NCBI GenBank assembly: GCA_025617745.1
Contig: CM046867.1
Span: forward strand, 31,860,705 to 31,924,704
Reading direction: 5' to 3'
DNA from: Heliocidaris erythrogramma
Lineage: Eukaryota > Echinodermata > Echinoidea > Camarodonta > Echinometridae
Length of the DNA stretch: 64,000 bases
The notes under the pieces are model-generated. The model was not told the origin of the DNA. It saw only the letters and a program-made list of their open reading frames with translations, and ran no database searches. This document shows positions 4,681 to 57,500 of this stretch, one piece after another. A program made the translations under genes and the position numbers. Each line of letters starts with the position of its first letter. Position 1 is the first letter of the stretch.

Positions 4681-4984
4681 ATTTGTGGTACGTGGCGGGG
4701 CCCAGGAATGATTTTTTCCAAATCAGTTCTCAATATCTTCAAAATATGCGATCATTTTTGTTCCTAATTTTAGTGATACATAAAGATACATATTTTATGT
4801 ATCATCTGAATATTCATTTTAATTATAAATTTTAAATATTAAATGGTAAAATATTGTTACATAGGCCTAAACGAGATAAAAATGAATCGAAAGAAAATTT
4901 GGGCGTTCTCTTCATTATTAGGCCTTTTGATAATAGCATTTGAATTAACTAATTAATCTAATTAAGATGGAAATCAGGAACCGA

Positions 4985-5004
4985 GTTCTTCTTGTAATTT
5001 TCAG
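4985..5004 (+). promoter_or_regulatory. probable 3' splice site of a 5'UTR intron
   Basis: A pyrimidine-rich ttcttcttgtaattttcag ends at 5004, 15 nt before the TLR start codon. The partner gene keeps the same feature (gttattttcag, then 15 nt, then ATG). Conservation suggests a spliced leader exon further upstream. The donor was not found. Confidence 0.5.
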
Positions 5005-5019
5005 CTACTTCAAACCAAC

Positions 5020-7677
5020 ATGGCTCGACCAAGTTCATTCCAGCTATTACTTGTTCTGTATCTAACTCTCTTGGCTGCGACAAAAATGTCCCGAGGATAC
5101 CGTGTACGTCATCCCCACTTGACGGCTCCTAGATGTCCACATAGTCTCTTCAAAAACAATATATCCTGTGCTGGAATGGGACTCGAGGAGGTTCCGCAGG
5201 ACTTATTTCCAGGTGTTGAAGAACTAGATCTCTCAGCCAATTTCATATCATCTATTTCCAACTCATCCTTCCTCCCTTATCATTGTATAAAAAACCTATC
5301 CCTATTTGATAATGAAATAACAACAATAGCTACTGGAAGCTTTTATGCCATGCCAGAGTTGCAGTTTTTGGATTTAGGCCGTAATTACAAAGGCACTATA
5401 AAAATCACTTCTGAATTATTCAAGTTTTCTACAAAACTGTCTCACTTAAGCTTTCGAAGCACTCCTTTAGAATTTTTCCCAAATGACACATTGAAATGGC
5501 TCCCCAGATTAAAAGAACTAGATCTATTATATACTGAATTACCCTACATAAACATCAGCTCCTGTAGATCAAAAGCTCATACAATTAATATCTATCTAGA
5601 CACTCGTTATATTACAGCGATTACAAATAACACGTTCAAAATCAATTGTGAGCTAAACTGTCTCTATCTGGAAGCCTTAATAGACTCTATAGACTCGAAT
5701 GCTGTAGCGTCCTTACGTTCCATAACTCTGTTCTTCTTTGACTTAACTTGGCCAAAGTCGCTAAATCTGTGGGAACCGCTCCTCGTAGGAATTGCGAACT
5801 CTGAAATCCAGAAACTGTTTTTAACGACCACACGACTAAACCAGATAAATCAGCACTGTTTTGCACCCTTGTGGAAAAAACCGCTACAGGTTCTTGATCT
5901 TCATAATAACAAGGTAACCAACCTAGATGGAATGGGATTTCTATCTCTACCACTCCTTACTACCCTGGTTTTAAACTATTGTTCAATTCGTTATATAAAT
6001 CCAACATATTTTGCTAGAATGAAAGGATTGGAGGTTCTCAATTTGAATCACAATGATATTGAAGGAATTGGGGGCATCGATGGCCTTTGTAATGGTACTG
6101 AATGGGATGTCGACCTACAGGAATTGCATCTCGCATACAACCAACTGGTTTCCATTCTCAGATGCTTCAAAGGGTTGACGAATTTGAAGATTTTGGTATT
6201 AAAGGGAAATGCTAAATTGTTAAGTATAACTATTTTTGATTTCGATGGATTAATAAGCCTTAAGTCACTAGACGTGTCGGGATGTAATTTAGCTTCCTTG
6301 TCGATAAGTGATGTCCCTAACTTTGAAACGTTCATCTATAGTGACTGTGATCGGTCCACAGAAATGATTGACATGGGGCACGTTTTCGATAGCATAAAGT
6401 CTATTAAACATGTGTTTTTGAGAAACGCTGGTATGAATTCATTTTGGATTCCATCTTTGAATAGTACTGTTTCTCTGTTTCGTGGAATGAGAAATCTTAC
6501 GAACCTTGATATACAGAAAAATCCTTTGAAACTATTGCATTCGGGCCTATTCGCAGATCTGCTGATTCTAAAAGAATTGGATCTAAGCTATTGTCAACTC
6601 ATAAAGATTGAAGAGAAGGCGTTTGAAGGCCTTCAACGTCTACAGACCTTGTACTTACAGGGTAACCATTTACACGATCTTCCACGAGGAGTACTCCAGA
6701 ATACGGGGCTGTTGAGAACTATTCACATGGATGGCAATGAAATAATGTATCTTGAAAAAGATCTATTTAGGAATTCATCGAAACTTACAAATCTGACAGT
6801 CGCTGGGAACAAACTCACTGGATTTAACCGCAGTACCTTTGAGCCAATACTCAACACTCTCCGATTTATTGACATTTCGGACAATGACTTGGTCTGTACT
6901 TGCGATTTGAAATGGCTCCCTACATGGTTGTCTGGGTCCATCACACTCATGAACGAAAACGATACAAGGTGTTCAACTGCCTCATTGGAGGAGTTGCAAG
7001 AAAGACCACTGATGTTGTTTAATACTGCAGAATTATGTGGCCCTAATATATCTCTCTACTGTTCACTTTCTCTAGTAATCACATGCATTGTGGTGATAGT
7101 GATCTTTGCCTACCGCCATCGATGGTTCTTAAAATACAAACTATTCCTCCTGAAAATGGCTGTCATCGGTTATCGTGAAATCCAAGATGCTCGAGACATT
7201 GACGATTTTGAGTTTCATTTAAACGTCATGTTTGCTGAGGACGACGAAGAGTGGGTTAGGGATCGTCTACGTCCGGTCTTGGAGGAACTGCTGCCGGAAT
7301 ACCACAGGAACATCTACGGCGACAATTACCTTCCTTTAGGTATGCATTACTGTGATGCAGTCCACTACGTTGTGGAAATGAGCTACAAGACTATCATGTT
7401 GGTCAGTAGGGCTGCCATCCAGGATAACTGGTTCGTCATCAAATTTAGGACTGCGGCCGACCAGGTCAACGACACGCAATTAGAAAACGTGGTGGTCATC
7501 TTCCTAGAAGACATCCCAGACAACGAGTTACCGTTCTTGGTGAGGCTGTACCTGAGCGACCGTAAACCGTACCTCAGCTGGGACGACGATGAGGAGTTTC
7601 AAGAGTACTTCTGGCCAAAACTAACCAAGATGTTAACGATGAATTTGAGATGCAACAATGTTATCCCCCCTGAGTAG
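5020..7677 (+). CDS. Toll-like receptor, single coding exon (copy 1)
   Basis: The 885-codon protein is a type I membrane receptor of innate immunity. Seen: hydrophobic signal peptide about 1-22; a leucine-rich repeat ectodomain about 45-620 with many LxxLxLxxN units and N-glycosylation sites; a cysteine-rich C-terminal LRR cap about 620-672 (CTCDLKWLPTWL, two later Cys); a transmembrane helix about 678-699; a basic juxtamembrane stretch; and a TIR domain about 727-878. The TIR keeps the LPLG turn of the BB-loop region and the FW of box 3 (EYFWPKL), but box 1 is changed to LNVMFAEDD. TIR domains recruit adaptors such as MyD88 in the cytoplasm. The start is the first ATG and is followed at once by the signal peptide. 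The gene is tail to tail with its paralogue at 19949-22624. The ligand is unknown. Confidence 0.94.
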   Translation: MARPSSFQLLLVLYLTLLAATKMSRGYRVRHPHLTAPRCPHSLFKNNISCAGMGLEEVPQDLFPGVEELDLSANFISSISNSSFLPYHCIKNLSLFDNEITTIATGSFYAMPELQFLDLGRNYKGTIKITSELFKFSTKLSHLSFRSTPLEFFPNDTLKWLPRLKELDLLYTELPYINISSCRSKAHTINIYLDTRYITAITNNTFKINCELNCLYLEALIDSIDSNAVASLRSITLFFFDLTWPKSLNLWEPLLVGIANSEIQKLFLTTTRLNQINQHCFAPLWKKPLQVLDLHNNKVTNLDGMGFLSLPLLTTLVLNYCSIRYINPTYFARMKGLEVLNLNHNDIEGIGGIDGLCNGTEWDVDLQELHLAYNQLVSILRCFKGLTNLKILVLKGNAKLLSITIFDFDGLISLKSLDVSGCNLASLSISDVPNFETFIYSDCDRSTEMIDMGHVFDSIKSIKHVFLRNAGMNSFWIPSLNSTVSLFRGMRNLTNLDIQKNPLKLLHSGLFADLLILKELDLSYCQLIKIEEKAFEGLQRLQTLYLQGNHLHDLPRGVLQNTGLLRTIHMDGNEIMYLEKDLFRNSSKLTNLTVAGNKLTGFNRSTFEPILNTLRFIDISDNDLVCTCDLKWLPTWLSGSITLMNENDTRCSTASLEELQERPLMLFNTAELCGPNISLYCSLSLVITCIVVIVIFAYRHRWFLKYKLFLLKMAVIGYREIQDARDIDDFEFHLNVMFAEDDEEWVRDRLRPVLEELLPEYHRNIYGDNYLPLGMHYCDAVHYVVEMSYKTIMLVSRAAIQDNWFVIKFRTAADQVNDTQLENVVVIFLEDIPDNELPFLVRLYLSDRKPYLSWDDDEEFQEYFWPKLTKMLTMNLRCNNVIPPE

Positions 7678-19948: not shown

Positions 19949-22624
19949 CTACTCAGGGGGGATAACATTATTGCATCGCAAATTTATCGTCAACATCTTG
20001 GTTAGTTTTTGCCAGAAGGACTCTTGAAACCCCTCATCGTCGTTCCAGCTGAGGTATGGCTTACGGTCGCTCAGGTACAGCCTCACCAAGAACGGTAACT
20101 CGTTGTCTGGGATGTCTTCTAGGAAGATGACCACCACGTTCTCTAATTGTGTGTCGTTGACCTGGTCGGCCGCAGTCCTGAATTTAATGACAAACCAGTT
20201 GTCCTGGACAGCAGCCCTGCTGACCACGATGATGGTCTTGTAGCTCATCTCCACAACGTAGTGGACTGCATCACAGTAATGCATACCTAAAGGAAGGTCA
20301 TTGTCGCCGTAGATGTTCTTGTGGTATTCTGGCAGCAGTTCCTCCAAGACCGGACGTAGACGATCCCTAACCCACTCTGTGTCTTCCTCAGCAAACATGA
20401 CGTTTAAATGAAACTCAAAATCGTCAAAGTCTCGAGCGTCTTGGATCTCTTGATAGCCGATGACAGCCAGTTTTAGGAGGAATAGTTTGTATTTTAAGAA
20501 CCATCGATGGCGGTAGACAAAGATCACTATAACGACGATCCATGTGATTACAAGAGGAAGCGAACAGTAGAGAGCGATGTTAAGGCCACACAATGCTGCA
20601 GTATTAAATAACATCAGTGGTTTTTCTTGCAATTCCTCCAATGAGGCAGATGAACACTTGGTATCGTTTTCGTTCATGAGTGTGATGGAACCAGAAAGCC
20701 ATTCTGGGAGCCATTTCAAATCACAAGTACAGACCAACTCGTTGTCCGAAATGTCAATGAAGCGGAGAGTGTTGATTATCGGCTCAAAAGTACTGCGGTT
20801 GAATCCAGTAAGTTTGTTATAACGGAGTGTCAGATTTGTAAGTTGCGATGAATTCATAAATAGATCTTTTTCAAGATATATCAGTACATTGCCATACATG
20901 TCAATAGTCCTCAAAAGCCCCATATTCTGGAGTAATCCTCGTGGAAGCTCGTGTAAATAATTACCCTGTAAGTTCAATGTCTGTAGGCGCTGAAGGCCTT
21001 CAAACGCCTTCGCTTCAATCTTAATGAGTTCACAATAGCTTAAATCAAATTCTTTTAGAAACAACAGATCTGCGAACAGCCCCGCATGCAATAGTGTCAA
21101 TGGATTTTTCTTTACATCAAGTTTCGTAAGATTTCTCATTCCACGAAACAGAGAAATGGTACTATTTGAGGATGGAATCCAAAATGATTTCAGACGAGCG
21201 TCTCTCAAGAACACATGTTTAATAGACTTAATTCTAGAGAAAAATTCCCCCAGGGTATCCATTTGTGTTAACCAATTAGAGTCACTATAGATGAAAGTTT
21301 CAAGGTTAGGGAGATCACTTATCCACAAGGCAACAAAACGACATCCCGACACGTCCAAGGACTTAAGGTTTGATAACCCAGCGAAAGCTGTTATAGTTAT
21401 AAAAAGTAACTGATAATTTCCCTTTAATACCAAAATCTTCAAATTTGTCAACCCTGTGAAGCATTTGTCGTCAACGGAAAACAGTTCGTTGTAAGCGAGA
21501 TGCAATTCTTGTAGATTGACATCCCATGCACTATCGTTGCCATCGATCCTCCAAATGTTTTCAATCTTATTATCATTCAAATAAAGAATCTTCAATCCTT
21601 TCATTTTAGCAAAATCTGCTGGATTTATATAACGAATTGAACAATTGTTTAGAACAAGGGTAGAAATGAGTGGTAGAGATAAAAATCCCTCTCTGTACAA
21701 GTAGCTTAACTTACTATTACTAAGATCAAGAACCTGTAGCGTTTTGTTTTGTAAGGGTGCAAAATAGAGCGGATCTATTTGGCTTACTTGTGTGGTATGT
21801 AAAAACAGTTTCTGGATTTCAGAGTTTGCAATTCCTATGAAGACATTTTCCCACAGATTTGGCGACATAAACCTAGTTAACGGCCCGAAGAACAGAGCTA
21901 TGGAACGTAAGGACGCTACAACGTCCGAGTCTATCGATGCGATGTCCGAGAGGTCAAGATAGAGATTATTTAGCTCACAATTGATTCTGAATGTGTTGTT
22001 TGTAATCGCTCTAACATAAACAGTTTCTAGAGAGATATCCAATGTATGAGCTTTCGATCTACAGGAACTGATGTTTATGTAGGGTAAAAGCAGGGTATTG
22101 CGTAGATCTAGTACTTTTAACATGGGGAGCCATTTTAATGTGTCGTTCTCGAACAATCTTACAGTACTGCCTAAAAAGCTTAGGTAAGACAGTTTTGTAG
22201 AAAACTTGAATAATCCAGATGTGATATTTATGCTCCCAATATTATAGCTTAAATCCAAATACTCCAACTGTGGCATGGGATAAAAGCTTCCAGCAGCTAT
22301 TGTTGTTATTTCATTACCAGATAGGGACAGTTTCTTGATACGATGATAATGGAGGAAGGATGAATTGTAAATAGATTGGATGTGATTTTGTGAGAGGTAT
22401 AGTTCTTCGACGCCTGGAAATAAGTCCTGCGGAACATCCCTGAGTCCCATTCTAAAACAGATGATTTTGTTTTTGAAGAGACTATGTGGGCATCTAGGAG
22501 CAGTCAAGCGGGTATGACGTACACGATATCCTTGGGATCTTACGTGATGGAAAGACATTTCTGTCGCAGCCAAGACAGTTAGATACAGAACAAATAATAG
22601 CTGGAATGAACTTGGTCGAGCCAT
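19949..22624 (-). CDS. Toll-like receptor, single coding exon (copy 2)
   Basis: The 891-codon protein is a paralogue of the plus-strand TLR. It has a signal peptide about 1-22, an LRR ectodomain about 50-625, a cysteine-rich cap about 627-678 (CTCDLKWLPEWL), a transmembrane helix about 684-705 and a TIR domain about 733-884. The TIR is almost the same as copy 1 (roughly a dozen differences in 157 residues), while the LRR part differs far more, including a six-residue insertion after the signal peptide (SFHHVRSQ). Box 3 FW is kept (ESFWQKL) and box 1 is LNVMFAEED. No stop or frameshift is present, so both copies look functional. The start ATG and the splice-site-like cag 15 nt upstream match copy 1. 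Confidence 0.94.
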   Translation of the reverse strand: MARPSSFQLLFVLYLTVLAATEMSFHHVRSQGYRVRHTRLTAPRCPHSLFKNKIICFRMGLRDVPQDLFPGVEELYLSQNHIQSIYNSSFLHYHRIKKLSLSGNEITTIAAGSFYPMPQLEYLDLSYNIGSINITSGLFKFSTKLSYLSFLGSTVRLFENDTLKWLPMLKVLDLRNTLLLPYINISSCRSKAHTLDISLETVYVRAITNNTFRINCELNNLYLDLSDIASIDSDVVASLRSIALFFGPLTRFMSPNLWENVFIGIANSEIQKLFLHTTQVSQIDPLYFAPLQNKTLQVLDLSNSKLSYLYREGFLSLPLISTLVLNNCSIRYINPADFAKMKGLKILYLNDNKIENIWRIDGNDSAWDVNLQELHLAYNELFSVDDKCFTGLTNLKILVLKGNYQLLFITITAFAGLSNLKSLDVSGCRFVALWISDLPNLETFIYSDSNWLTQMDTLGEFFSRIKSIKHVFLRDARLKSFWIPSSNSTISLFRGMRNLTKLDVKKNPLTLLHAGLFADLLFLKEFDLSYCELIKIEAKAFEGLQRLQTLNLQGNYLHELPRGLLQNMGLLRTIDMYGNVLIYLEKDLFMNSSQLTNLTLRYNKLTGFNRSTFEPIINTLRFIDISDNELVCTCDLKWLPEWLSGSITLMNENDTKCSSASLEELQEKPLMLFNTAALCGLNIALYCSLPLVITWIVVIVIFVYRHRWFLKYKLFLLKLAVIGYQEIQDARDFDDFEFHLNVMFAEEDTEWVRDRLRPVLEELLPEYHKNIYGDNDLPLGMHYCDAVHYVVEMSYKTIIVVSRAAVQDNWFVIKFRTAADQVNDTQLENVVVIFLEDIPDNELPFLVRLYLSDRKPYLSWNDDEGFQESFWQKLTKMLTINLRCNNVIPPE

Positions 22625-22639
22625 GTTGGTTTGAAGGTG

Positions 22640-22660
22640 CTGAAAATAACAAGAAGAGCT
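22640..22660 (-). promoter_or_regulatory. probable 3' splice site of a 5'UTR intron
   Basis: On the minus strand, cttgttattttcag ends 15 nt before the ATG, as in copy 1. Conservation between diverged paralogues supports a real acceptor. Confidence 0.5.
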
Positions 22661-22840
22661 TGGTTGTAATTTCCAGCTGAATTGGATAAATTCAACTGCT
22701 ACTATCGAAAGGCCTAATAACGAAGGGAACGAACAAGACTAATGAATTTCTTTCGATTCGTTTGCATTTCTATTATGTAACAAATATATGATTTAATGTT
22801 TATGATTTCTTATCCAAATGAACATCCAGATGATAAATAA

Positions 22841-26369: not shown

Positions 26370-28745
26370 ATGTTGGGTTGACAATGTGATGGATCTCGAG
26401 ACACAATTTCTCCAAGAAATTCTGTCTTCAGCTGTTCTAGTTAGCTGCTTAAAAAGCATTCCTGTCCACTACCTTATGTAAATGATACAGCAAGAATGCT
26501 ATACGCAAAGCTAAAAATGATACGAGTGTAGGTTTACTTCTGTTCGGTCTGATCTTAGAGCCACTTGGAAAAATAATGAGGTATTACGAAACTATTCAAA
26601 CAGAATGAAACCAACATCTCTTGAAATTGATGGAAAGTTAATTAAAGATACTTCCCAGATTACAGATACATTTAACAAATACTTTGTCAATGTTGGGAAG
26701 AATATAAGTGATTCCATCCCAACCCTTGATTTAGATCCAGGCTCTTACCTTTCAGGTAACAATCCAAACACTTTCTTTTTTATTGATCATTGTTTTGAAT
26801 GGATTTGATGTGAAGATATTACAAAGTTTCATTTGATCCTAGCTGCAATAACATACATATATTTAATTTGTCTTTCCATCAGGGTTGTTTTCATGATAAA
26901 CTGAAAGTAGCCATGGTCTTGCCAATATATAAAGTTGGAATAAGAATATTTGCAAGAACTATAGGCCTATCTTTGTTTTATCTGCGTTTATTAAAACCTT
27001 TGAGAACTCATTTAAAAAGAGATATTTTTTTTCATTGATAGATATTCTACACTGGATAACAAACAATTTGGTTTTCGTACTGTGCATTCAACATATATGG
27101 CCTTGCTTGATTTTTTTCCTTTTGAGGAAATTATATTATGGTATACGAGGCGTTGCTTTCTCATTTTAAACGAGTTGCTTGAGTGATCGAAAGCAATTTT
27201 TACAGATCGATAATGTAAAATTCACCACTCGGAACGTCTGTGTTGGTGTACAACAGGGTTCAATTTTTTAGACCCCTTATTATTTTTATTATGTATCAGT
27301 GATGTGCAATATGTTAGTAAATTTTCCCAATTATTTTTGCAGACGATACCAACTTGTTTACCACTGCCAAAAGCTGAAATGAGGGAAATATCAGACAGTG
27401 TACTACCCAAAAATGATAAATGGTTTGTTTATTTAGGCAATAAATGAATGATAAATTCAATTAAGACTAATCATATGATATTCAAAACCAAAAATAAAAA
27501 AATTAACGATTCAACTATGCATAAATACCTTTAAATGATCCCCCAAAAAAATAAAACGTCCGTGGACGAAAATATAAGTTGTTAAAAACACAATGAGGAC
27601 GTCTATTTTTAAATTACTCCTGTAATTGGTGGAGTCTTTTTAAATTAAGAAATTTTACACCGCTTGATGTTTAATTAATTTGTATAATTCTTTGTTACAG
27701 TGCTTTGTTACTATATTTCTTATTGTATAATAATCTGGGGCAATTGCTCTGATAGTTTAATTGATAAATTATTCATACTTCAAAAAAGAGCGGTTATCCC
27801 AGAACTCCCAGTATTTAAGGCACTATTGACCAAATACAATATATTTTTGACAAATTCATGATATATCTAAACTAGCAATTGCATCATTTATGTAAATATT
27901 TTTCCCACAAACTATACCTACCGTGTTTGATAACCTGTTCACTCTGAATTCAAGCTACCATATCTGTGATACAAGACACTAAATGTCTATTCATAAACCC
28001 TTTTTTGAAATATAAAATATCTAGACAGTCTGTTAATTCATGTGGCCCTAAAGTTTGGCGTACTATACCCTCAAATATTAAAGATTCCCCCTCACCTGCT
28101 CACTTGCGATATTTAAGAAAAAATCAAATATCTATTACTTAATTCCGGAAATGAATCTGCATAATACATCTTTAACCCCCATTTTAAAATATTTTTCATG
28201 ATCTTTTTTTTTTTTTTTTGGCATTTTCCATTTTGAATGTCCTTTTTTTAAAATAAATGTATATATATATATCGCCATCTATAAGGCGAATTCTCTTTGC
28301 ATAGGCCTATTGTTCCAATTCGCCTTTCCGCAGGCTCCGACTAGCCTTAAAGTCGAATTTCTTTTGTGACGGAATAAACCGCATTGTTACGATTCGCTCT
28401 TTCGTAGAATATAAGGGTATATCCTTAAAGAAAATTTAAGGCGAGTCGGAGCCTGCGGAAAGGCGAATTGGAACAATAGGCCTGTACAAAGAGAATTCGC
28501 CTTATAGACGGATCTAAAGATTTATATATTTATATATGTATATAATCCTTCTAACTTATTCTAGGAGCTAGCCTTTGACAGGCCTCAGGCTGCTGGCTCC
28601 CCCTGAACTCTAATTTTTGACGTCTTTTTTTTTAATGTAAGACTGTATATTTATATGTATTTGTTTTTCTTTCGCATTTGTATATATATATATTTGTTGT
28701 TTATTGTAATTTTTTTATGAATGGAAATAAAACTTGAACCTTGAA
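26370..28745 (+). mobile_element. CR1-like LINE remnant, 3' two-thirds
   Basis: On the plus strand, 26605-26808 carries the EN-RT linker (FNKYFVNVGKNI). 26920-27120 carries decayed RT text (FGFR, HSTYMALLDF) and the FADDTNLF block lies at about 27330-27355 in a shifted frame. The 3'UTR ends near 28745 with aataaaacttgaaccttg followed by A residues. The same LINE, longer at its 5' end, occurs at 54480-57500 (-). A foldback element (28278-28508) sits in the 3'UTR here. Confidence 0.75.
28278..28508. mobile_element. 231-bp foldback element
   Basis: About 72-bp inverted arms start TCTATAAGGCGAATTCTCTT and include ccaattcgcctttccgcag and ggctccgact. The loop is about 85 bp. It is absent from the matching place in arm B and lies beside AT-rich microsatellites, so the TSD is unclear. 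Confidence 0.75.
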
Positions 28746-29649
28746 AAAAAAATCAGAATTACAAACCCTATTTAATTCTAGGAATTATGAACCTTCCGAT
28801 AAACGAACCTTCGGAATAACAAATCTTCGAAATTATGGACTTTTGGAGTGATGCAACAAATATTCGGAGTTATGACCCCTATTTCATTTTATGAACCCCC
28901 TGGTATGGCAATTTTGTGTTTCGGAATCTTCGGAATGACTTATCTCCGGAAAATTCTTAACAAATCCTTAAAATGTATTAACTAACACAAATCATGAGAT
29001 ATAAGGAGTCATAATTATGCAAGGCACTTGAAAGCGAGCGTACATGATCATGAGTCTGAATGCTGATTGGATGAATTTGACCTGGGCAACATAAAGTTAG
29101 AATACAGTGTGTATTATATCAGTCAACAAAGCAAATAAGAATAACCAACAACTTACATGTAACCTACCTATGTCGTCTGTAAATAGAGAGGAAAAATCGG
29201 CAGAACTTCAATGGATCTCCGTGTATAATAGCAGGTATTAGTCAACTCAAATGACACGTTCTTTTCGCGATTGCCTCTTTTAAACGGTTTGATATTATCG
29301 ATACAAATTGATGTCGATAGTAAAATATCAGCTTTAATTGAAAATAGCAATATATTATTGGTCATCGTTGAGGAGAGGGAGGCGTTTAGGTTGCGGTGGA
29401 CTGTTACAGACTTTGTCTGTACCTCGTCATAATTGTTTGTACATTTGTCATTCCGTGTGAAATATTAATAACAAATCTAGATCTGCCAACCTGTAATCAA
29501 AAGTGTTTTAAATTACATTTTGTATCATGTCTTACCAACTCTCATAAATCACTTAGACGTAGTTGAGATAATAGAACAGTAATTATCATGTTTGCTTTTC
29601 CACCCAAAATAAACCACAATAGTTTCCTTTTCAATCAACATTCAGTATG

Positions 29650-30170
29650 CTTCAGATTCAGATTCAGATTAAAAACCATTTATTTTTCTTCTCATAATTA
29701 AATAAATACAAAATGAAATGTACATTGACAAAAAACATGGTGGAAGGAGGCGAGGGTCCCAGGAAGCGAGGGTCCCAGGAAGCGCGTGGCTTGTTTTGGG
29801 GTCGCATTAACAATACATAATATCATACAACAATTATAATATAAACAAACACATCTGAAAGAAAAAGGAAAAAGAAATCTTCAATAAGATTGTGTGCTAC
29901 TGACTATATTATACGACGTACTTAAAGAACGAGTAAATAAATGGAGTGAAGGGAATGTTTTAATGGAGTCATTTAAGTTGTACCAGAATCTGGGACCAGA
30001 AAAACGAATATTCTGTTGAACGCAACTGTTCTATGACTAGGAATATGGATGTCTCTCACAAATCACAGATCTTGTTGGATGATTATGAAAATTACAATTA
30101 AAATCAAACAGATTACAAAATTGTTCGGGGAGATATTTGTAAATGCACAAAAAAACTATTGTTGCATGGG
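29650..30170 (-). mobile_element. CR1-like LINE 3' end with (GAATCT)n tail
   Basis: Read on the minus strand, RT C-terminal coding (GPRxWyNLNDSIKT near 29950-30000) is followed by a 3'UTR and ends in aaatggtttttaatctgaat and repeats of gaatct at 29650-29672. Related copies: 53180-53440 (+) and 49310-49600 (+). Short-repeat tails are normal for CR1-group elements. Confidence 0.7.
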
Positions 30171-30330
30171 CCGCAGAATCGGGGGGGGGGGGGGGTGGGT
30201 GGGCTGCAGCCCCCTAACTTTTTTGAGTATACACGTTTCATAAAATCTCGGAAAAAAGGTTCAAAAATTGTCATTAATGAGTGAAATTAAATCCCCCACC
30301 ACTTTCAAAAAAGCTCTGCGGCCTCTGTGT
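30171..30330. repeat. G-run repeat with gggctgcagccccc
   Basis: The G run at 30181-30195 is followed by ggctgcagcccccta and gagtatacacgtttcat. The same words occur at 58692-58735, and part near 53030-53090. Confidence 0.5.
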
Positions 30331-31036
30331 TGGTAACAAACAATATTTTAAAATTTTAACATTTCTTCAACATGGGAGGAACACATAGGGTAAATATACA
30401 GCTTGTCAAATTCTTTCTTTCTTTATTATCACTTCAATTTAAAAAAAGATAAAGAAATCATAATGGAAATCAGGATGATCAAGGAATAGTCCGCCCATCC
30501 TTGTCTTTCAGTGTCTTTACTTTAGCTGTTATGATTAAGTGTATCGTAACAAATCGTAGACCATAAATCTATAAAAGTTGTTTCAATTTCTTTGGTATGT
30601 TCATGTACGTAAAAAGAAAATTAATGATGAGCAGATTGCTGGAAAGTGTTATCATATTTTACATCATAAGTATGGTACCCCACTGACAAAGAGCACCACT
30701 CGAAAATAAGAAGTTTTCTGTTTAAAAAAAGTTCTCTAAACAATAAATTTCTTAGGATGGATCAGATCTCATTTATCCGAACATAGTTTACGATGTTTTG
30801 TGCATGACGTTGAGGGGTAAAGTATGATAAAGAGCATTCTATAAAACTTTAGAATACTCCAAATAAATAAAAAGGTCTCATATCAGTCGTGGGATCATAC
30901 ACGTTCGAGGCGGGGAAAGACCACCGCACGACCCCCCCCCCCCCCCCCTCAATATTCGGGCAAGTGGCATCAAGTCATGTTTGGTTAGCGCAGTGAAACA
31001 AAATTACATTGAAACTCTAAAATTGGCTCCACCGAT

Positions 31037-43043: not shown

Positions 43044-46000
43044 TTATAACATAGCAGAGAACTTAATACAACTTATTTTGAAAGTACGAATTGACGGACT
43101 AAGCTGTACTGAAATGGGAAGTTTATTAAATAAAAAGCTTCCAGTAAAAGAAAAGGAACGCTTTTTGTAATCACTTTTTGGATGAGGTATTGATAGTGTG
43201 TTATTTTCTGAGTATCGCGTACAATAGGTGGTAAAATAGGGAGTGATTAAGCGTTCCAGATACATAGGTACCATGTTGTTCAGGATTTTAAATACAAGTA
43301 AGCAGTATTGGTATTTGATTCTTTGTTCAACGGATTGCCAGTTCAAAGTGGTTGTTAAGTAACACTGAGAGGTAAAAGAATCAACGTTAAGTACTAAGCG
43401 TGCATATCTATTTTGTAATCTTTGGATTTTAGCCAAGTTTGTTTTGGAACAGCTTCCCCATGCAGTACAACAGTAGTCAATATGTGGTAATATCAAAGCA
43501 TAATAAAGATTAATTAAAATCCTCTTAGGTATTAAGTGCTTAACACGACGAATGCAACCTATTGATCGTGATATTTTACCATGAATATGAGCAATGTGAT
43601 CGTTCCATAACAACTGAGAATCAAAAATTAAACCTAAATATTTTATTTTATCTACACATTCTAAATCTGTGTTGTAAAATTTTATCACAGGTTGTTTATT
43701 TTTAATTTTCTTTTTTGGGCCAAAAAGCATCACATGGGTTTTACTTGGGTGTAAATACATGTCATTATTTTCCAACCAATTTATGATTAATTTAAAATCT
43801 TCCTGGAGATTTTTCTGAACTTGCAAAACGTCAACCCCATGACTGAAAACGGCAGTATCATCAGCATAAAGTGAGATTTTAGTATTGGGATGAAATTGTA
43901 AATTACATACATCATTTATAAACAGACAAAATAACAAGGGACCCAATATAGATCCCTGGGGGACCCCAGATTTGATAATTACGAGATCGCTAGTGCATTG
44001 GTTAATAGAAACACACTGTTTTCTGCCAATTAAATAATTAATGAACCAACTATGTTCATTGTTTCTTATACCATAATATAATAATTTTTTAAGTATCCTG
44101 TCATGTGAAATAACATCAAAAGCTTTTTTTAAGTCCAGAAATATACTACCTGTAATTTGTTTGGTATTCATATTATCTAACAAGTAATCAACAATATCCG
44201 TTACACAAGTTGCAGTAGAGTGCGATGGTCTAAAACCCGACTGTTGATAAGAAAGCATTCTATTTTGGTTGATATATGTATATAATTGCTTATGTACTGC
44301 TTTTTCTAGTATCTTAGATAGGACGGGGAGTACCGATATTGGTCGGAAGTTATTTACTTCGTAGCTACCCCCTTTATGGATAGGTGTTATTCTAGCTATC
44401 TTGAAATCCATCGGAATATGTGAGGTTTTGAGTGAGCAATTAAAGAGGTATGTGATAGGTTCTGAGATAAATTCAGCTGCAAGTTTTAACAGTTTAGGAT
44501 GTAGTCCATCGATTCCGGCTGCTTTCTTGCAGTCAATACAAAGTATTTCGTTTTTAACAAACTCGACAGTTATTTCATTAAATCTAAATTCTTTGTTTGA
44601 CTTAAACAGTGTATTCATAGAGTTAACATCGGAATTATGATTGATATTACGAATCGGGGTACTGTCCCTTAGACGTTCACTTACATTCTGGAAAACTTCA
44701 TTAAGTGTATTTACAATATTTGTATTGTCTGTAATTACATCACCATTTATAACCAGTTTGTAATCAGTGTCGATACGTTTATTTGGAATGAGGTTTTTTA
44801 AAATTTTCCAGTTTTTATTAACATCATTTCCACACTGTAAAAATTCATTTTTAAAATATTCTTTCTTAAGCCTTTTGTTCAGATTATTTGCTTTATTCCT
44901 ATAACATTTAAACTTGTCCCAGTCCAAAATCGATCTAGATGACTTGAATTTCTTTTTATAAAAATCACGTTCACGGGCCACTATGATGTATTCCTCTGTG
45001 ATCCATGGAACTCCGTTAGATTTTCTTCTTACGGATATAAATGGTGCATGTTTATCACTAACAGATGAAAATTTTGATTTAAGACAATCCCACATGCATT
45101 GTACATTGCAATCATTTGAATAAAATTCACTCCAATCAAGTTGACTTAAATCTTGTTTAAATTTCACCTCATCGAATGTACGGAAAGATCTAATCTTACT
45201 AATCTTAGGTAAAGAGGACTGACATTTACATTTTATCACTGTAAATACCAATGAATGATCACTGAAGCCGATACATTGTACACCGGACTGAACCGTAGAT
45301 ATTGCACGAGAGGTAAGTATTAAGTCTATCAATGAACTGCTATATGGTGTAATTCTAGTTGGCTCTTTAATAAGCTGCTCCATCTGTGTATAGGAACATA
45401 ATTCATTAATCTTCTTTGACAGGATATTTTTTGTGATCATGTTGCAATTAAAATCCCCAAGAATTATGATATTATTAGAAATAGACATCACTCTATCAAT
45501 CGCTTCTTCAAGACAATTAAAAAATGATGTACTTGAATTAGGCTTTCGATAGACTGTACCTATAAACAAAGAGCTACTGTTGACTCGTTTAATTTCGAGC
45601 CACAGCAACTCTAGGTCTGTAACTTCTAGGTCATTTCTTCTTACATAAGTATATTTATCTCTAACATAGCATCCAACGCCACCTCCACCACAGCCCTGTC
45701 TATCTAATCTTTCAAATCTGTAGCCAGGTATGGTGATCATGAAATTTGATATATCATTGTTTAACCATGTTTCAGAAGTACTCAGTATATCATATGAGTT
45801 ATTTGAAAGAAATTCTTGCAAATCTATAATTTTATTTTTCAGACTTCTTATATTTAAATGGGCAATCTTAATTCCGTTTCCTCCTGGAAATTCCGAGAAA
45901 ATACTTTTAGTTTTAATTAATTCATTTTGGACTAAAGTTACCTGGGAATTAATAAATTGGTTACCGTGCAAAACATCAACATCAAATAATTTTACATCAT

Positions 46001-46181
46001 GGAAAGGTAATTCTTTACACAAGCATGCATTACAAACCCAGTCAGCATCAGAATGGAAAAAATCTAAATTAAGAGATGAACAAGAAAAATGCGTCCATCG
46101 TCTACACTTAACACATAAAACAGCATTGTGATTATTTGTTACTGATTTAGAGCAATTTATACAAGGATAAAATTTACCCAT
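43044..46181 (-). CDS. LINE ORF2: PHD finger, endonuclease, reverse transcriptase
   Basis: The 1045-residue polyprotein begins with a PHD-type zinc finger (C7, C10, C23, C26, H31, C34, C50, C53, exactly C4HC3). An APE-like endonuclease follows at about 104-330 (HLNIRSL, SETWL, GDFNCNM, SDHSLVF). The reverse transcriptase covers about 600-880 (RPISVLPVLSKILEK, QSGFRPSHST, LDLKKAFDVISHD, GVPQGSILGPLLF, YADDTAVF with both aspartates near 770, KYLGLIFD), then the C-terminal part with FNKLPISVQ. It acts in target-primed reverse transcription. It starts 51 bp after ORF1. No inactivating change is visible. It is an autonomous retrotransposon gene, not a host gene. Confidence 0.93.
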   Translation of the reverse strand: MGKFYPCINCSKSVTNNHNAVLCVKCRRWTHFSCSSLNLDFFHSDADWVCNACLCKELPFHDVKLFDVDVLHGNQFINSQVTLVQNELIKTKSIFSEFPGGNGIKIAHLNIRSLKNKIIDLQEFLSNNSYDILSTSETWLNNDISNFMITIPGYRFERLDRQGCGGGGVGCYVRDKYTYVRRNDLEVTDLELLWLEIKRVNSSSLFIGTVYRKPNSSTSFFNCLEEAIDRVMSISNNIIILGDFNCNMITKNILSKKINELCSYTQMEQLIKEPTRITPYSSSLIDLILTSRAISTVQSGVQCIGFSDHSLVFTVIKCKCQSSLPKISKIRSFRTFDEVKFKQDLSQLDWSEFYSNDCNVQCMWDCLKSKFSSVSDKHAPFISVRRKSNGVPWITEEYIIVARERDFYKKKFKSSRSILDWDKFKCYRNKANNLNKRLKKEYFKNEFLQCGNDVNKNWKILKNLIPNKRIDTDYKLVINGDVITDNTNIVNTLNEVFQNVSERLRDSTPIRNINHNSDVNSMNTLFKSNKEFRFNEITVEFVKNEILCIDCKKAAGIDGLHPKLLKLAAEFISEPITYLFNCSLKTSHIPMDFKIARITPIHKGGSYEVNNFRPISVLPVLSKILEKAVHKQLYTYINQNRMLSYQQSGFRPSHSTATCVTDIVDYLLDNMNTKQITGSIFLDLKKAFDVISHDRILKKLLYYGIRNNEHSWFINYLIGRKQCVSINQCTSDLVIIKSGVPQGSILGPLLFCLFINDVCNLQFHPNTKISLYADDTAVFSHGVDVLQVQKNLQEDFKLIINWLENNDMYLHPSKTHVMLFGPKKKIKNKQPVIKFYNTDLECVDKIKYLGLIFDSQLLWNDHIAHIHGKISRSIGCIRRVKHLIPKRILINLYYALILPHIDYCCTAWGSCSKTNLAKIQRLQNRYARLVLNVDSFTSQCYLTTTLNWQSVEQRIKYQYCLLVFKILNNMVPMYLERLITPYFTTYCTRYSENNTLSIPHPKSDYKKRSFSFTGSFLFNKLPISVQLSPSIRTFKISCIKFSAML

Positions 46182-46232
46182 TGGGTGTGCCTTAAAAAGT
46201 CATTAATGATCAAAATTCATAATATACAATAT

Positions 46233-47141
46233 TCAATAATAGGCATCTAGTTTTTCAAGATCATTTTCTCTTACAATACGCACTTTCTTTCCGTCTTTGG
46301 TTAGGGCAGTGATCTTGCCATCGGTCGTCCAAGTTTTGGATACATTGTCATGTGTCCTTGCCTTAAAGAAAAGGTAAGATCTGTGCGCTGTCAAGTCCTC
46401 GTGTATGTATATTTTGGAGCCTCGAAGTTTCAAGCGGCCTCGATATACACTGTCCCTTACATTGTATCTACTGAATTTGACGATGATCACCTCTGGATTA
46501 TCATTCAAGGCAGGCTCAAGCATCTCTGAAGTTTCATCGCTCGCAGCAGTAGCTCTCCTTGGCATTTTGTGTAAGCGATCAATGTCAGTTGGCACAATAG
46601 TCATGTCCATCTTCTCATTCACGAGGTTGATGATGGCCTGCTCAGTTGTCTCGTTAGGCGCTACCTTCACTCCGTGGAATCTCAGACAGCTCCTCCTACT
46701 ATACTGTTCCTGTTCCTCAATGTTAGCTTCGATCTTTTTTATATTTAGTTGCAATTTCTTCATTTTTTTGTCAATAGATTGTAATTCCCATGCTTTATTT
46801 TCAAGCTCAATTTGGAGTCCGGCGTGTAGTTCCTTTGCAACTTTGTCATACACAGCGTTGTATACCGCTTCAACAATCACTTTGACGACCTGGGGTGACC
46901 TCAGAGCATTCAATATCTCGTCACTGATTACCTCTTTTATCTCGGAGGGAGAATTTACATTTGAATGGGCTTCTTCCCGACTTGACACAGTCCAGTGATC
47001 AGCGTCTTCAGTGGCCTCCTCATCCGAGTTTGCTTGCGGGACACTCTCGGGTGGGTCACTTCCAAGTACCTCGATCATAGCTTCTTCATTCTGTTTCAGT
47101 TTTAGCCGTTTTCCTTTCCTCGTTTTCTTCGCGTTGGACAT
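46233..47141 (-). CDS. LINE ORF1: RNA-binding chaperone-like protein
   Basis: The 302-residue protein has a basic N-terminus (KKTRKGKRLKLK), an acidic stretch about 25-60, a coiled coil about 105-150 (LENKAWELQSIDKKMKKLQL), then an RRM-like fold announced by EQYSRRSCLRFHGV (about 147-160) and a C-terminal domain with KIYIHEDLTAHRSYLFFKAR. This is the L1-type ORF1 architecture also used by many CR1-group LINEs. It binds the element RNA. The start is the ATG before the basic stretch. It is upstream of ORF2 in the same orientation. Confidence 0.88.
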   Translation of the reverse strand: MSNAKKTRKGKRLKLKQNEEAMIEVLGSDPPESVPQANSDEEATEDADHWTVSSREEAHSNVNSPSEIKEVISDEILNALRSPQVVKVIVEAVYNAVYDKVAKELHAGLQIELENKAWELQSIDKKMKKLQLNIKKIEANIEEQEQYSRRSCLRFHGVKVAPNETTEQAIINLVNEKMDMTIVPTDIDRLHKMPRRATAASDETSEMLEPALNDNPEVIIVKFSRYNVRDSVYRGRLKLRGSKIYIHEDLTAHRSYLFFKARTHDNVSKTWTTDGKITALTKDGKKVRIVRENDLEKLDAYY

Positions 47142-47921
47142 GATTAAAATGAAGTAAAATTACCTCGCTCCAAAAGAATAATGTTCCGGGGGTGTTGGTG
47201 AGTTCAATATATAGGGGTTAATGGTGATTTACATCACAAACACGATCCAAAAACCTTCGAAAAACATACCTGAGGCAATTCCAGTAGCCGTATCGCTACT
47301 ATAATATATGTATGTGTGAAAAGGGGATCAGAATCATATCAATTGAATGTAACATATTGTCTTCTGTTTGATAAATAATCTTTAAACCATAAGAGTGGTT
47401 GACCTCGAATTCCATATTGACTGAGTTTGGAAAATAGGATAGCGTGACTGAACGTATCGAATGTTTTACTTAAGTCACATAATATACCAACAACATGTTC
47501 TTTGTTAGCTATGGCACTTGAAATTTTGTCGTAAATTTTGAATTAATGCTAGGTCAGTTGAGTAATTTTTCCTGAAACCATATTGATTTGAATTGAGTAT
47601 ATTGTGTTTATTGATAAATGTATGTAACCTATTATAAACGATGTTTTAAAGACTTTTGATATACGTGGAAGTAAGGAAATGGAACGATAATTATTTATTT
47701 CGTGCGGATCATCTTTTTGAAAATTGGGTTGACTTTAGCTATTTTGAATAGATCAGGGAAAACACCTTGTGATAACGAGTGATTAAATATGTGAGTTAAA
47801 GGCTTCGCAAGTGGGTGGATTATTTCTTTTAGAAGAGACATACTTATTTTATCGAAACCATGAGATTTTGAGCTGTTAAGAGATTGGGTAATATTAACAA
47901 TTTCGCTGGGATTTGTTGGGT

Positions 47922-52412: not shown

Positions 52413-53179
52413 GGGGGGGGGGGGGGGGGGTCGGGCAGTGGTCTTTCCCCGCCTCGAACGTGTGTGCTCCCACGACTGCTATGTGACTCTTTTATTTCTT
52501 TGGAGTATTCTAAAGTTTATAGAATGCTCTTTATCATACTTTACCCCTAAACGTAATGCACGAAACGTCGTAAACTATGTTCGTATAAATGAGATCTGAT
52601 CCATCCTAAGACATTAAATTTCATTGTTTAGAGAGCTGTTTTCTAAGAGAAACCTTATTTTCGAGTGGTGCCCTTTGTCAGTGGGGTACCATACTTATGA
52701 TGTAAAATATGATAACACTTTCCACAATCTGCTCATCGTCATTATTTATGTACATGAACGTACCAAAGAAAAGTGAAACAACTTTGATAGACTTATAATC
52801 TACCCTTTTGTTTTTTACGATACACTTAATCATAACAGCTAAAGTAAAGACACTGAAAGACAAGGGTGGGCGGACTCGAAACAATTTTCACTTTGTTATT
52901 CCTTGATCATTATGATTGTCATCAATTCTTTGATTCCTTTTTATTGAAGTGACAAAGGTGAACATATCACCCTGAGGTCCCTACCGTGGTAAAATTTGAA
53001 GATATTGTTTGTTACCAACACAGGGGCCGCAGAACTTTTTGAAAGTGGGGGGGGGGGGGGGGGGGCTGATTTGGTTTCACTCATTAATGACTCCACATAA
53101 TTATTTACTCGTTCCGAAAAAAAAAATACGTCGTATAATATAGTCAGTAGCGCATGATTTTATTGAAGATTTCTTTTTC

Positions 53180-53440
53180 TTTATCTATTTCTTTTCTTTT
53201 TTTTTTTTCTTTTAGATTTGTTTGTGTATATGGTATAATTGTTGTATAATATCATGTATACAAAAATATGTATTGTTAAGGCGACCCCAAAACAAGCCAC
53301 GTGCTTCCTTGGACCCTCGCCTCCCTCCACCATGTTTTTTGTGTGAATGTACATTTCATTTTGTATTTATTTGATTATGAGAAGAAAAATAAATGGTTTT
53401 TAATCCGAATTTCAATCTTAATCTGAAGCATACTGAATGT
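53180..53440 (+). mobile_element. CR1-like LINE 3' tail
   Basis: It ends aaaaataaatggtttttaat followed by ccgaatttcaatcttaatct, a decayed (GAATCT/TAATCT) tail, and shares the ggaccctcgcctccctccac segment with the minus strand of 29740-29770. Confidence 0.65.
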
Positions 53441-53998
53441 TCCTTGAAAAGAAACTAATTTGGTTTATTTGGGGTGAAAAAGTAAACATGATAATGCTTT
53501 TCAGTTTCATTTGTGAATGTTTTTTTTGGGTTAATTTATAAACATATAAACTTCAGTCTTCAGGAGTATGTTTCTGTTCTATTATCTACGTCTAAGTGAG
53601 TTATGAGAGTTGGCAAGATATCATACAAATGTAACTTAAACACTTTTGATTGCAGGTTGTCAGATCTACATTTGTCATAAATATTTCACACGGAATAAAT
53701 ATTATATGTATGAACAATGATGACAAAACAAAGTCTGTAACAGTCCACGGCAACCTAAACGCCTCCCTCTCCTCAACGACGACCAATAATATATTGTTAT
53801 TTTCAATTATAGCTGATATTTTCACTTTCGATCTCAATTTGTATCAGTAATATTAAACCGTTTAAAAGAGGCAATCGCGAAAAGAACGTGTCATTTATGT
53901 TGGCTGATACCTGCTATTATACACGGAGATCCATTGAAGTTCTGCCGATTTTACTCTCTATTTACAGACGACATAGGTAGGTTACATGTAAGTTGTTG

Positions 53999-54066
53999 CA
54001 CTGTAAAAAATAACTGTAGATTAACAGGTTTTTTGACTTGTAAAATTACAGTTATTTTTTACAGTG
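53999..54066. mobile_element. 68-bp palindromic MITE, CACTGTAAAAAATAACTGTA
   Basis: The ends are 20-bp inverted repeats. TG occurs on each side (53997-53998, 54067-54068). Copies of the repeat at about 29142-29152 and 3393-3410 lack it and keep a single gttgttggtt, which proves the insertion. Confidence 0.82.
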
Positions 54067-55239
54067 TGGTTATTCTTATTTGCTTTGTTGACTGATATAA
54101 TACACACTGTATTCTAACTTTATGTTACCCAGGTCAAATTCATCCAATCAGCATTTAGACTCCTGATCATGTACGCTCGCTTTCAAGTGACTTGCATAAT
54201 CATGACTCCTTATATCTCATGATTTGTGTTAGTTAATGCATTTTAAGGATTTGTTAAGAATTTTCCGGAGATTAGTAATTCCAAAGATTCTTAATTCCGA
54301 AACACAAAATTGCCATACCAGGGGGTTCATACAATGAAATGGGAGTTATAACTCCGAACATTTGTTGCATCACTCCGAAGGTTCATAATTTCGAAGATTT
54401 GTTATTCCGAAGGTTCGTTTATCGGAAGGTTCATAATTCCTAGAATCAAATACAAGAAAAAATACCCCCCCCCCGCCAAAAAAAAAAAAAAAAAAAAAGA
54501 CATCAAATTTTAGAGTGCATGAGAGCCAGCAGTAGCCGGAGGCCTATCAGAGGCTAGCTTCTGGATTAAGTTAAATGATAATCTATATATATGTCAGAGT
54601 TACGGACTATAAATGAAATACCGGAAGACAAGTGAAATAAGGAACTCAAATATATATTAAACGTTATTCATCGAAGTAAAACAGATACAATATTACTGCA
54701 ATTGACACTCTCAAGTATTGCCCATACAAGTTACAAGGATGAACTTTGATCAAAATTCAAGAATTTGTCCCACGACCGAATATATAAAACAATGACTTAA
54801 ATTTGTCACTTAAATCGATAATTTGCCACAAAGAGCCCAAATTATTTCAAATTCAACATACCAGTAAATTTACTCTCTAGTTTTGTCATTCAAACTAAAT
54901 AATGAAACCAATGAAATCGATCACGAAGATCACTAACTCGTCATAAGGACTCTTATCTCGTTCCACATGTCAGTTATAGCACTTCAATAGATCACAAAGA
55001 TCCCTTACACGTTTTGTCACTAAGACCGAATATGGAAATGAACTAAATTGATCACTAAGATCAATAATTTGTCACCAAGAGAGTAATATGAATAGACATT
55101 TGGTGTCTTGTATCACAGATAGCTTGAATTCAGAGTAAACAGGTTATCAAACACAAGAAGTATAGTTTGTGGGGAAAAATATTTACATAAATAATGGAAT
55201 TCGTAGTTTAGATATATCATGAATTTGGAGTCAAAAGGG

Positions 55240-55278
55240 GCCTGAGCTTTCGATCCTAGCAGAATCTTCGTCAGAGGC
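55240..55278 (-). ncRNA. hammerhead-like motif, left-arm copy
   Basis: Mirror image of 55314-55352: on the minus strand GCCT, CTGACGA, extra A, GATTC-loop-GGATC, GAA, AGCT, C, AGGC. Transcripts of either strand would therefore contain one motif in sense. Confidence 0.45.
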
Positions 55279-55313
55279 AAAAAGCCTTTGAAAAAAGCCA
55301 AAAAAGTCGTTTT

Positions 55314-55352
55314 GCCTCTGACGAAGATTCTGCTAGGATCGAAAGCTCAGGC
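55314..55352 (+). ncRNA. hammerhead-like motif (type I topology, extra A)
   Basis: GCCT (stem I 5'), CTGACGA 55318-55324, A 55325, stem II GATTC/GGATC with loop TGCTA, GAA 55341-55343, stem III AGCT 55344-55347 (self-complementary), C 55348, AGGC 55349-55352 pairing with GCCT. All core elements of a hammerhead are in order. The unusual point is one extra A between CTGACGA and stem II. Confidence 0.5.
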
Positions 55353-55961
55353 CCCTTTTGACTCCATTTTACTCCATTGGCTCGCTATTATTGGATAAGC
55401 AGTTTTCAGCAGCTTGTTTTCGATATATCATGAATTTGTCAAAATATTGTATTTCGTCAGTGGTGCCTTACTGGGAGTTCTGTGATGAGAACTTGTAATG
55501 ATGCGAATCGCTCTTTTTTGAAGTATGAATAATTTGTCAATTAAACTATCAGAGCAACTGCCCTAGATTATGGTACAATAAGAAATATATGACAGTATCA
55601 AAGTTTTATACAACTTGATTAAAACATTGAGTGTAAAATGTCTTAATCTGGAAAAAAACCCACAAATGGCAGGTGCGACTTAACAGATGTCCTCATTGTG
55701 TTTTGAACAACTTATGTTTTCGTCCACAAGGACTACAAGGAATTTTGTAACAGAAGTTTTATTTATTTCTTGATCATTAAAGGTATATATGCTAAGGTGA
55801 ATCGTTCAGTTTTCTATTTTTGGTTAGAATATCATATGATTAGTCTTACTTAAATCAATTTTGGTAGTTCACTGTCTAATATTTTCGTCATTTCAGTCGA
55901 ACTTTTGTAGTGGTAACAACTTCGTATCGTCTACAAAAGTTATTGCACATCATGTTTTCGA

Positions 55962-56219
55962 TCACTCAAGTAACTCTTTAAAAATGTTAAAGCAATGCGT
56001 CGGTAATAATAATTTTCTCAAAAGGAAAAATTCAAGCAAGGCCATATATGTTGAATGCCCTGTACGAAAACCAAATTGTTTGTTATCCAGTATAGAATAT
56101 CTATCAATGAGAAAAAAACCCAATATCCTTTTATAAATGAGTTTCTCAAAGGTTTTACTAAACAGAGATAAAACAGAGATAGGTCTATATTTCTTGTTCC
56201 CAGTTTTATATACTGGCAT
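55962..56219 (-). pseudogene. LINE reverse transcriptase fragment (CR1-like)
   Basis: The 85 codons hold NKKYRPISVLSLFSKTFEKL, YKRILGFF, NKQFGFRTGHSTYMALL, the first RT motifs of CR1-group LINEs. The catalytic blocks further on are lost through frameshifts. The equivalent text in arm A lies at about 26930-27120. Confidence 0.78.
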
Positions 56220-57500
56220 GACCTTGGCTATATACTGTCAGTTTATCAGGAAAACAACCTTGTTGGAAAGACAAATTAAATATATACATGTACGTTAATG
56301 GAGGTAGGATCAAATGAAACTTTTCAATATCTTCACATCAAATCCATCATATCCAGGGCTCTTTCCTCCCTTCAAATTCAAAACAATGTTTAATATTTCA
56401 GATTGACTACATGAGTTAAAAAGAAAGTGTTTGGATAGTTACCTGAAAGGTAAAAACATGGATCTAACTCAAGGGTTGGGATGCATGAAATCACTTATAT
56501 TCTTCCCAACATTGACAAAGTATTTGTTAAATGTATCTGTATAATCTGGGAAGTATCTTTAATTAAATTCCCATTAATTTCAAGAGATATTGGTTTCATT
56601 CTGTTTGAATAGTTTCGTAATACCTCATTTATTGTTTTCCAAGTGGCTCTATAAGATCAGAGCAAACAGAAGTAAACCTACACTCGTAATAATCATTTTT
56701 AGCTCTACGTATATAGTATTGTTGCGGCATCATTTACATAAAGCAGTGGACAGGAATGCTTTTTAAGCAGCTAACTAGAACAGCTGAAGGCAGAAAGTTT
56801 TTGAAGAATCTGTGTCTCGGGCATGTGTCGGGGTCCATCACAACAGCCTTCAAGCTATGGGACATAGATAAATAGATATAATTCTGGCTTTCTTGTATAC
56901 CTTTTTGAAAATATTGGTTTGGTCTTTGAACAAACCTATTATATATCTTGTTTTTCTTTCTACACAATCTTGTCAACTGTCCTTTAAAACCAAGGATTTT
57001 TCCTCGAATCGTTGATTATACGGAAAATGATCATTAGGAAAAGTTTATCAAAAACTGTATCATATAAAACATTAACATTCATACAGTTATTAAATATAAT
57101 ATCATCCCAAGAAACATCACAAAGAATCATGTAAAATGAATTGATATTTTATTATCATTTAGTGACAGTACACACTTTTCTCTTTTGGCATTTTTATGAA
57201 TATTAAACTTTGAAAACACAAAACCCGGTAAATGATCACTGGCATCTCAAATCAATATACCAGGGAATATCACATCACTGAGGTAATTTACAAAAATATT
57301 ATCCATTGGAGATGACAGCTGTGTGATCCTGGTAGGTTTATCACTGAGATGAGAAAATGAATAAGAATTCATGCATTGTTCAAATTCAACTGATATATCA
57401 TTAGTATTTTTTTAAAGCAAATCAATATTAAGATCCATAAAAAACTCCTTTTCTTTTCAGTTGATATTTTGAATAAAATTGGTTACAGGTCGTTAAAAAA

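Follow-up and report, generated by a model that had tools for sequence, protein, structure and literature searches.

A palindromic insertion with facing hammerhead motifs in Heliocidaris erythrogramma is the footprint of a Penelope-like element insertion

In the genome of Heliocidaris erythrogramma, a 194-bp insertion (positions 55228 to 55421 of the window, i.e., the whole 64-kb stretch of DNA that was analyzed) carries on each of its strands a motif resembling the hammerhead ribozyme. A preliminary description had proposed a minimal element in which ribozyme-like units face each other, which raises the question of whether such a free-standing element exists or whether the insertion is the trace of a different one.

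The insertion and its hammerhead motif

The insertion is bounded on either side by a perfect 17-bp target-site duplication, GATATATCATGAATTTG, whose sole further exact copy within the 64-kb window is a single one on the minus strand (Table 1). This copy has homologous flanks on both sides and lacks the insertion; it is the empty site in a diverged inverted paralogue. Thus, the duplication and the empty site first described are confirmed, and retroposition with target-site duplication is supported. The source of the empty site is a large, diverged inverted duplication, in which positions 26397 to 30948 correspond to 52414 to 56819 with about 74 to 94% identity in pieces. Within the insertion, a 55-bp arm is followed by a 27-bp center, the complementary arm, one base, and a 56-bp tail; the arms are complementary without mismatch, as previously reported, but over 55 bp rather than 57 bp. 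Elsewhere in the window, long open frames at 4966 to 7677 (+) and 19949 to 22738 (-) look by eye like those of Toll-like receptors, with leucine-rich repeats, a hydrophobic stretch, and a TIR-like end, and an apparent LINE-type retrotransposon (43044 to 46199 and 46233 to 47159, -), also recognized by eye, shows an endonuclease/RT-like frame and a smaller frame upstream.

Table 1. Parts of the insertion and its empty site (positions in the window)
Feature	Position	Strand	Remarks
Target-site duplication, left copy, 17 bp	55211..55227		Identical to 55422-55438
Inverted arm, 3' part of the pseudo-LTR, without tail	55228..55282	-	Outer end (G)GAGTC, common to most palindromes; putative RT start site 1
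Hammerhead core, predicted cleavage 55244/55243	55244..55274	-	Pattern scan and covariance model (E 0.00032)
Central junction, variable	55283..55309		Sequence differs from copy to copy; putative joining point of two cDNA copies
Direct arm, sense, same pseudo-LTR segment	55310..55364	+	Perfect 55-bp complement of the left arm
Hammerhead core, predicted cleavage 55348/55349	55318..55348	+	Pattern scan and covariance model (E 0.00032)
PLE tail, 56 bp	55366..55421	+	In 9/24 single-arm rows and on one arm of 31/32 palindromes; outer end (55421), putative RT start site 2
Target-site duplication, right copy, 17 bp	55422..55438		Exact match to the left copy
Empty site, inverted paralogue	27851..27867	-	Single exact 17-mer, homologous flanks on both sides

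The core of a hammerhead consists of CUGANGA and GAA around stem II. In the insertion, the corresponding sequence (CTGACGA-A-GATTC-TGCTA-GGATC-GAA-AGCT-C) is found once on each strand, in support of the motif pair that had been described. It is possible to hypothesize that this likeness is due to chance and that the arm is merely sequence of the Penelope-like element (PLE) presented below, and a few results agree with such a reading. In particular, a loose pattern matched four times in the window, compared to 3.86 expected, which is the chance level. A separate scan of the window for CTGANGA, zero to two extra bases, a stem II of 4 to 6 pairs, a loop of 3 to 30, and GAA returned four places, of which the two outside the insertion require loops of at least 16. 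No hammerhead was matched in Rfam at the gathering score, and none on positions 55150 to 55500 at E values up to 10. On this same segment, 14 sub-gathering Rfam matches in that E-value range, the highest-ranking being miRNA families, were rejected because the long hairpin of the insertion drives them. A search of phage records found nothing relevant. Furthermore, the minimum-energy fold predicted for one arm, which shows stem II as well as stem I (GCCU/AGGC), is not unusually stable (z 0.89). In other variants, stem I beside the core looks weak by eye.

Against chance stand the pairing pattern and the abundance of the motif. A covariance model built from 18 other motif sequences of the genome with the insertion's own family excluded, found both strands of the insertion at an E value of 0.00032 in 64 kb, the E values of this tool being rough. 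The 18 sequences were hand-picked from the listings, with a variant having one mismatched stem pair also excluded, and all 54 of their stem II cells are standard, pair 1 being fixed by the search pattern. Since the mismatched-pair variant was absent from the 18, the covariation test was repeated on all rows of the open-pattern listing. Pairs 2 and 3 turned out to be standard in 58 of 64 cases over the 32 distinct, unselected stems among the 100 matches listed, with six stems breaking a pair, compared to a mean of 32.6 after permutation, and the value of 58 was reached in none of 20,000 permutations; thus, stem II covaries. Moreover, the helix III tetramer is self-complementary (AGCT, AATT, ACGT, or ATAT) in 93 of the 100 matches listed, while 25% would be expected at random with the first and last bases fixed by the pattern; this would fit the pairing of one sense copy with another in helix III. 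The pattern with the tetramer partly open and with the extra A that precedes stem II occurs 5226 times in the genome, compared to 121 in the reversed control. Given these results, a chance resemblance is scarcely credible, and, as far as can be judged from its sequence, the motif is genuinely, at the level of structure, a minimal type I hammerhead of the kind found in PLEs.

The genome-wide searches covered 1.06 Gb in 26 contigs. A DNA search gave 999 first-look candidates, and 1264 cores with up to three mismatches were counted (638 and 626 on the two strands; control, 0), so that the motif does occur in many near-identical copies. Its architecture is also found across the genome in other sequences: the pattern with a GG..CC stem and AGCT matched 881 times (control, 0) and that with ACGT 464 times (control, 2), GAA-bearing motifs being abundant. 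The open pattern without the extra A, one fixed base shorter than the pattern with it, gave 479 matches, compared to 240 in the control. In this genome, motifs with the extra A thus outnumber those without it, so the A is not a mark of the insertion's family, and the suggestion of a special subfamily variant is not supported. Among the listed motifs lying less than 1 kb apart, 25 cases are head-to-head, 1 is on the same strand, and 0 are tail-to-tail, as counted on 290 of the 300 listed rows (1 of 100 omitted for the pattern with AGCT and GG..CC, and 9 of 100 for that with ACGT). One repeated motif that lacks the extra A, CTGAGGAG..GCACGAAACCTA, is likewise often found in close head-to-head pairs (e.g., C1:42359403- and 42359443+); it possibly represents a further PLE variant, whose tetramer is nonpalindromic. 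In the window itself, positions 1905 to 1937 (+), i.e., the 1.9-kb motif to which the insertion had been compared, hold a hammerhead motif of the ACGT group (E 0.0029, its family being within the model), in which GAT replaces GAA; since this breaks the core requirement, the motif is probably inactive.

The Penelope-like element behind the arms

Upstream of the arm we found a pseudo-LTR region, followed by ORF pieces. In particular, a single frame of locus L071 contains GIY-YIG (E 0.00027) together with RVT_1 (E 1.2e-7), and a hammerhead core lies downstream of it on the same strand. At L044, GIY-YIG lies upstream of the arm and exceeds the Pfam cut-off (E 2.3e-5, 25 bits), and at L072, RVT_1 (E 5.1e-11) is found in 855 aa, with no core within the fetched 3.4 kb. 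GIY-YIG falls slightly below the cut-off in both long frames (21.6 bits in L071, compared to 22.6). Short RT pieces gave no RVT_1 in Pfam, which the longer frames did give, and the RT fragment had 151 matches in the 150 candidates scored out of 3006. Because RT and GIY-YIG frames and a pseudo-LTR lie upstream, the arm represents the 3' terminus of a PLE, and it belongs to the pseudo-LTR of an abundant one. Three features of a canonical EN+ PLE were found, namely, RT and GIY-YIG in one ORF of arm-bearing copies, a pseudo-LTR with an optional tail and two alternative 3' ends, and a target-site duplication. In a second PLE RT group (about 50% identical), each of the five fetched loci has one motif downstream, always with one extra A and AGCT, although the scan left both the A and the bases of helix III free; one locus of this group, L097, has an additional weaker match without the extra A.

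One end of each kind in the short palindromes

Single-arm copies of this PLE end in two alternative ways, with 15 of 24 rows stopping at GACTCC and 9 of 24 carrying the 56-bp tail. The tail frequency derives from the 30 best-scoring loci, a nonrandom sample, from which L039 was dropped for its incomplete arm and five inverted-arm rows were set aside; L033/L034 and L056/L057 look like one insertion each, copied.

A search not conditioned on tails (control, 1 and 1) identified 32 short palindromes of the insertion's family, out of 36 forward matches of which three were unrelated sequence and one was a second match of the same place. The search required exact 9-mers on both arms and centers of up to about 70 bp, so that decayed palindromes are missed. 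L014, L015, L017 to L019, and L024 to L027, which are missing from the 32, were retrieved with a different query that carries a tail itself, and they were left out of the count. Exactly one arm is tailed in 30 of the 32 palindromes, as scored by script, and a remnant of the tail end kept in L088 raises to 31 those with one tailed and one untailed arm, while in L091 one end is unreadable; none of the 32 has two tails, and none of the readable ones lacks a tail. After the removal of L091 and two apparent segmental copies (L007/L008 and L085/L086 each being treated as copies of one insertion), all 29 palindromes have one end of each kind. If the ends were independent, at a tail frequency of 9/24 they would differ in 47% of the cases, and 29 out of 29 would have a chance of about 3e-10, which is still about 2e-9 at a tail frequency of one half, the most favorable value. 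The rule also holds for the longer-center copies L037 and L046/L048. For other PLE variants, six double insertions were fetched; one is nested, and the remaining five pair a short end with a long one. Such double insertions of other variants (L107 to L112) lie beside or inside (TA)n runs.

The longest flanking word shared by the two sides is 13 to 17 bp long in 21 of the 32 palindromes and at least 9 bp long in 28, whereas no shared word of at least 9 bp was found in four of the 32; that of L006 sits in a TA repeat. The tail of L028 lacks its outer end. At L036 (C4:6904459 region), both sides show the tail end and the flanking DNA is exactly inverted over 39 bp, so that the locus resembles either a product of fold-back or an insertion that landed in a natural inverted repeat.

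A small autonomous palindromic element, retrozyme-like or MITE-like, that multiplies by itself would explain why the family includes 32 short palindromes with a hammerhead on each strand. Such an element is nevertheless at odds with the centers, for which 28 distinct strings occur among the 32 palindromes, the repeated ones belonging to one apparent segmental copy or being only 13 to 14 bp long. Since the centers differ, most palindromes have separate origins, and nothing points to the amplification of a palindromic master; moreover, the 32 palindromes correspond to about 5% of the 1264 cores. The transcript is also unfavorable to this reading, as it is predicted to fold into a single 55-bp hairpin (-121.8 kcal/mol, z -18.86) in which neither core is exposed, so that facing ribozymes are unlikely to work together; judging from this predicted fold, the hammerhead within the palindrome is probably silent. 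As a part of the PLE RNA, instead, the hammerhead would act between tandem sense copies through the self-complementary helix III. We therefore regard an autonomous element as very unlikely, and the minimal element initially proposed does not stand, the arm being a PLE 3' end; the insertion is the footprint of a PLE insertion and not a new ribozyme element. Facing hammerheads are thus explained without ribozyme function, which removes a false lead.

Insertion mechanism and comparison with known systems

The mode of PLE insertion and the reason for inverted pseudo-LTRs and an optional tail are left open in the PLE literature covered. Dozens of minimal insertions in this genome allow both ends and the junction to be read at once. 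Because each palindrome has one end of each kind, its outer boundaries would be two start points and its variable part the center. Two-strand priming, with one cDNA from each site, is the simplest account of the palindromes, and we consider it likely that PLE RNA is copied from both nicked target strands, with one cDNA per start site, and that the copies are joined mid-way. The PLE enzyme would nick both strands of an AT-rich target; the 3' end of the bottom strand would prime cDNA at the distal start site (the tail end) and that of the top strand at the proximal one (GACTCC), perhaps with one RNA as the shared template. The two cDNAs would extend toward the RNA 5' end, where their 3' ends would be joined, often with short filler or template jumps, to yield a head-to-head inverted repeat surrounded by a duplication of mostly 13 to 17 bp. 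In vitro, RT of a lizard PLE starts at two adjacent internal sites with the tail between them, and both target strands are cleaved and extended, according to the portion of PMC11167929 considered here; the two genomic ends found here agree with this description.

The centers give some indication of how the copies may be joined. Repeated pieces of the arms are found in the centers of L006, L021, and L028, and such filler suggests template jumps during joining; in L092 (C18:34637117), about 22 bp of the center recur, as seen by eye, about 100 bp away in the left flank, and this sequence suggests a template jump onto target DNA. The arms end within 1 nt of each other in L004, L007, L013, and L022, i.e., four of the five palindromes that reach at least 16 nt past the anchor (a set that omits L008, a copy of L007), and L004 and L013 have the same sequence variant on both arms; matching arm ends and shared variants hint at a single RNA. 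Junctions are symmetric within 3 nt in 15 of 29 palindromes, compared to a permuted mean of 10.6, a value reached in 713 of 20,000 permutations. The symmetry of the cDNA ends is thus mildly above chance and for one shared RNA suggestive only, and since A/T runs inflate the reaches and the centers were preselected at about 70 bp or less, this test does not discriminate between the rivals. A bidirectional target-primed reverse transcription of one RNA, in which two RT subunits would each take one target strand and one start site and the cDNAs would become linked, at the RNA 5' end, through template jumping from end to end, is advanced tentatively, with slightly more doubt than confidence. If it is true, a single reaction would give rise to the central palindromes of PLEs as well as to their inverted pseudo-LTR and optional tail.

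Self-priming, to which inverted PLE pseudo-LTRs were ascribed in 2013, on an antisense template, offers a different origin for the inverted copies. It was argued for in the part of PMC3846280 considered here, accounts for head-to-head palindromes with tiny loops, and agrees with the four long-reach palindromes out of five whose arm ends lie within 1 nt; the 39-bp inverted flank of L036 is a better fit to fold-back, and this locus may be a case of self-priming. However, self-priming gives no reason why the second arm should stop, in nearly every palindrome, at the proximal start point, which is also the end of 15 of the 24 single-arm rows, and it has difficulty with the long asymmetric junctions of L046/L048, L110, and L112. 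For these reasons, we deem it unlikely as the general source of the inverted copies. The one-of-each-end rule yields a sharp, testable prediction and fits two-strand priming.

PLE hammerheads, inverted pseudo-LTRs, and tails were known beforehand, and the useful addition is the quantitative rule on the ends. In the literature covered, no connection between the two start sites and inverted copies was found, a weak form of evidence as subscription journals are mostly absent from it.

In the portions of the sources consulted, a close counterpart is Pen2a_Av of Adineta vaga (PMC3846280), which, as here, has an ORF with RT and GIY-YIG, a target-site duplication, an inverted pseudo-LTR at the 5' side, palindromes at the inverted junctions, and a tail that is optional on one inverted pseudo-LTR. 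Different from Pen2a_Av, the body is missing here and two facing pseudo-LTR ends remain, the target-site duplication is mostly 13 to 17 bp rather than 8 to 10 bp, and the tail is 56 bp rather than 31 bp. Poseidon PAc of Anolis carolinensis (PMC11167929) likewise has a hammerhead in the pseudo-LTR region and two RT start sites bounding the tail, as proposed here, with both strands cut and extended; in the portion of that source covered, inverted copies are not discussed, and the sole "inverted" refers to an inverted dT. Animal non-LTR retrozymes, as far as described in the part of PMC7229834 considered, share a type I hammerhead in a short nonautonomous retroelement, but they consist of direct tandem repeats, have hammerheads of the canonical form, and give circular RNAs, whereas the insertion is head-to-head with a minimal motif, and no direct tandem repeats flanked by hammerheads were found in it. 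Finally, minimal type I hammerheads were already described in PLEs and Terminons (PMC7761336 and PMC6155905, in the parts covered); they similarly lack a closed helix III and are believed to cleave when tandem copies form dimers, whereas in our insertion, a sense copy faces its own antisense, and dimer action should be hindered.
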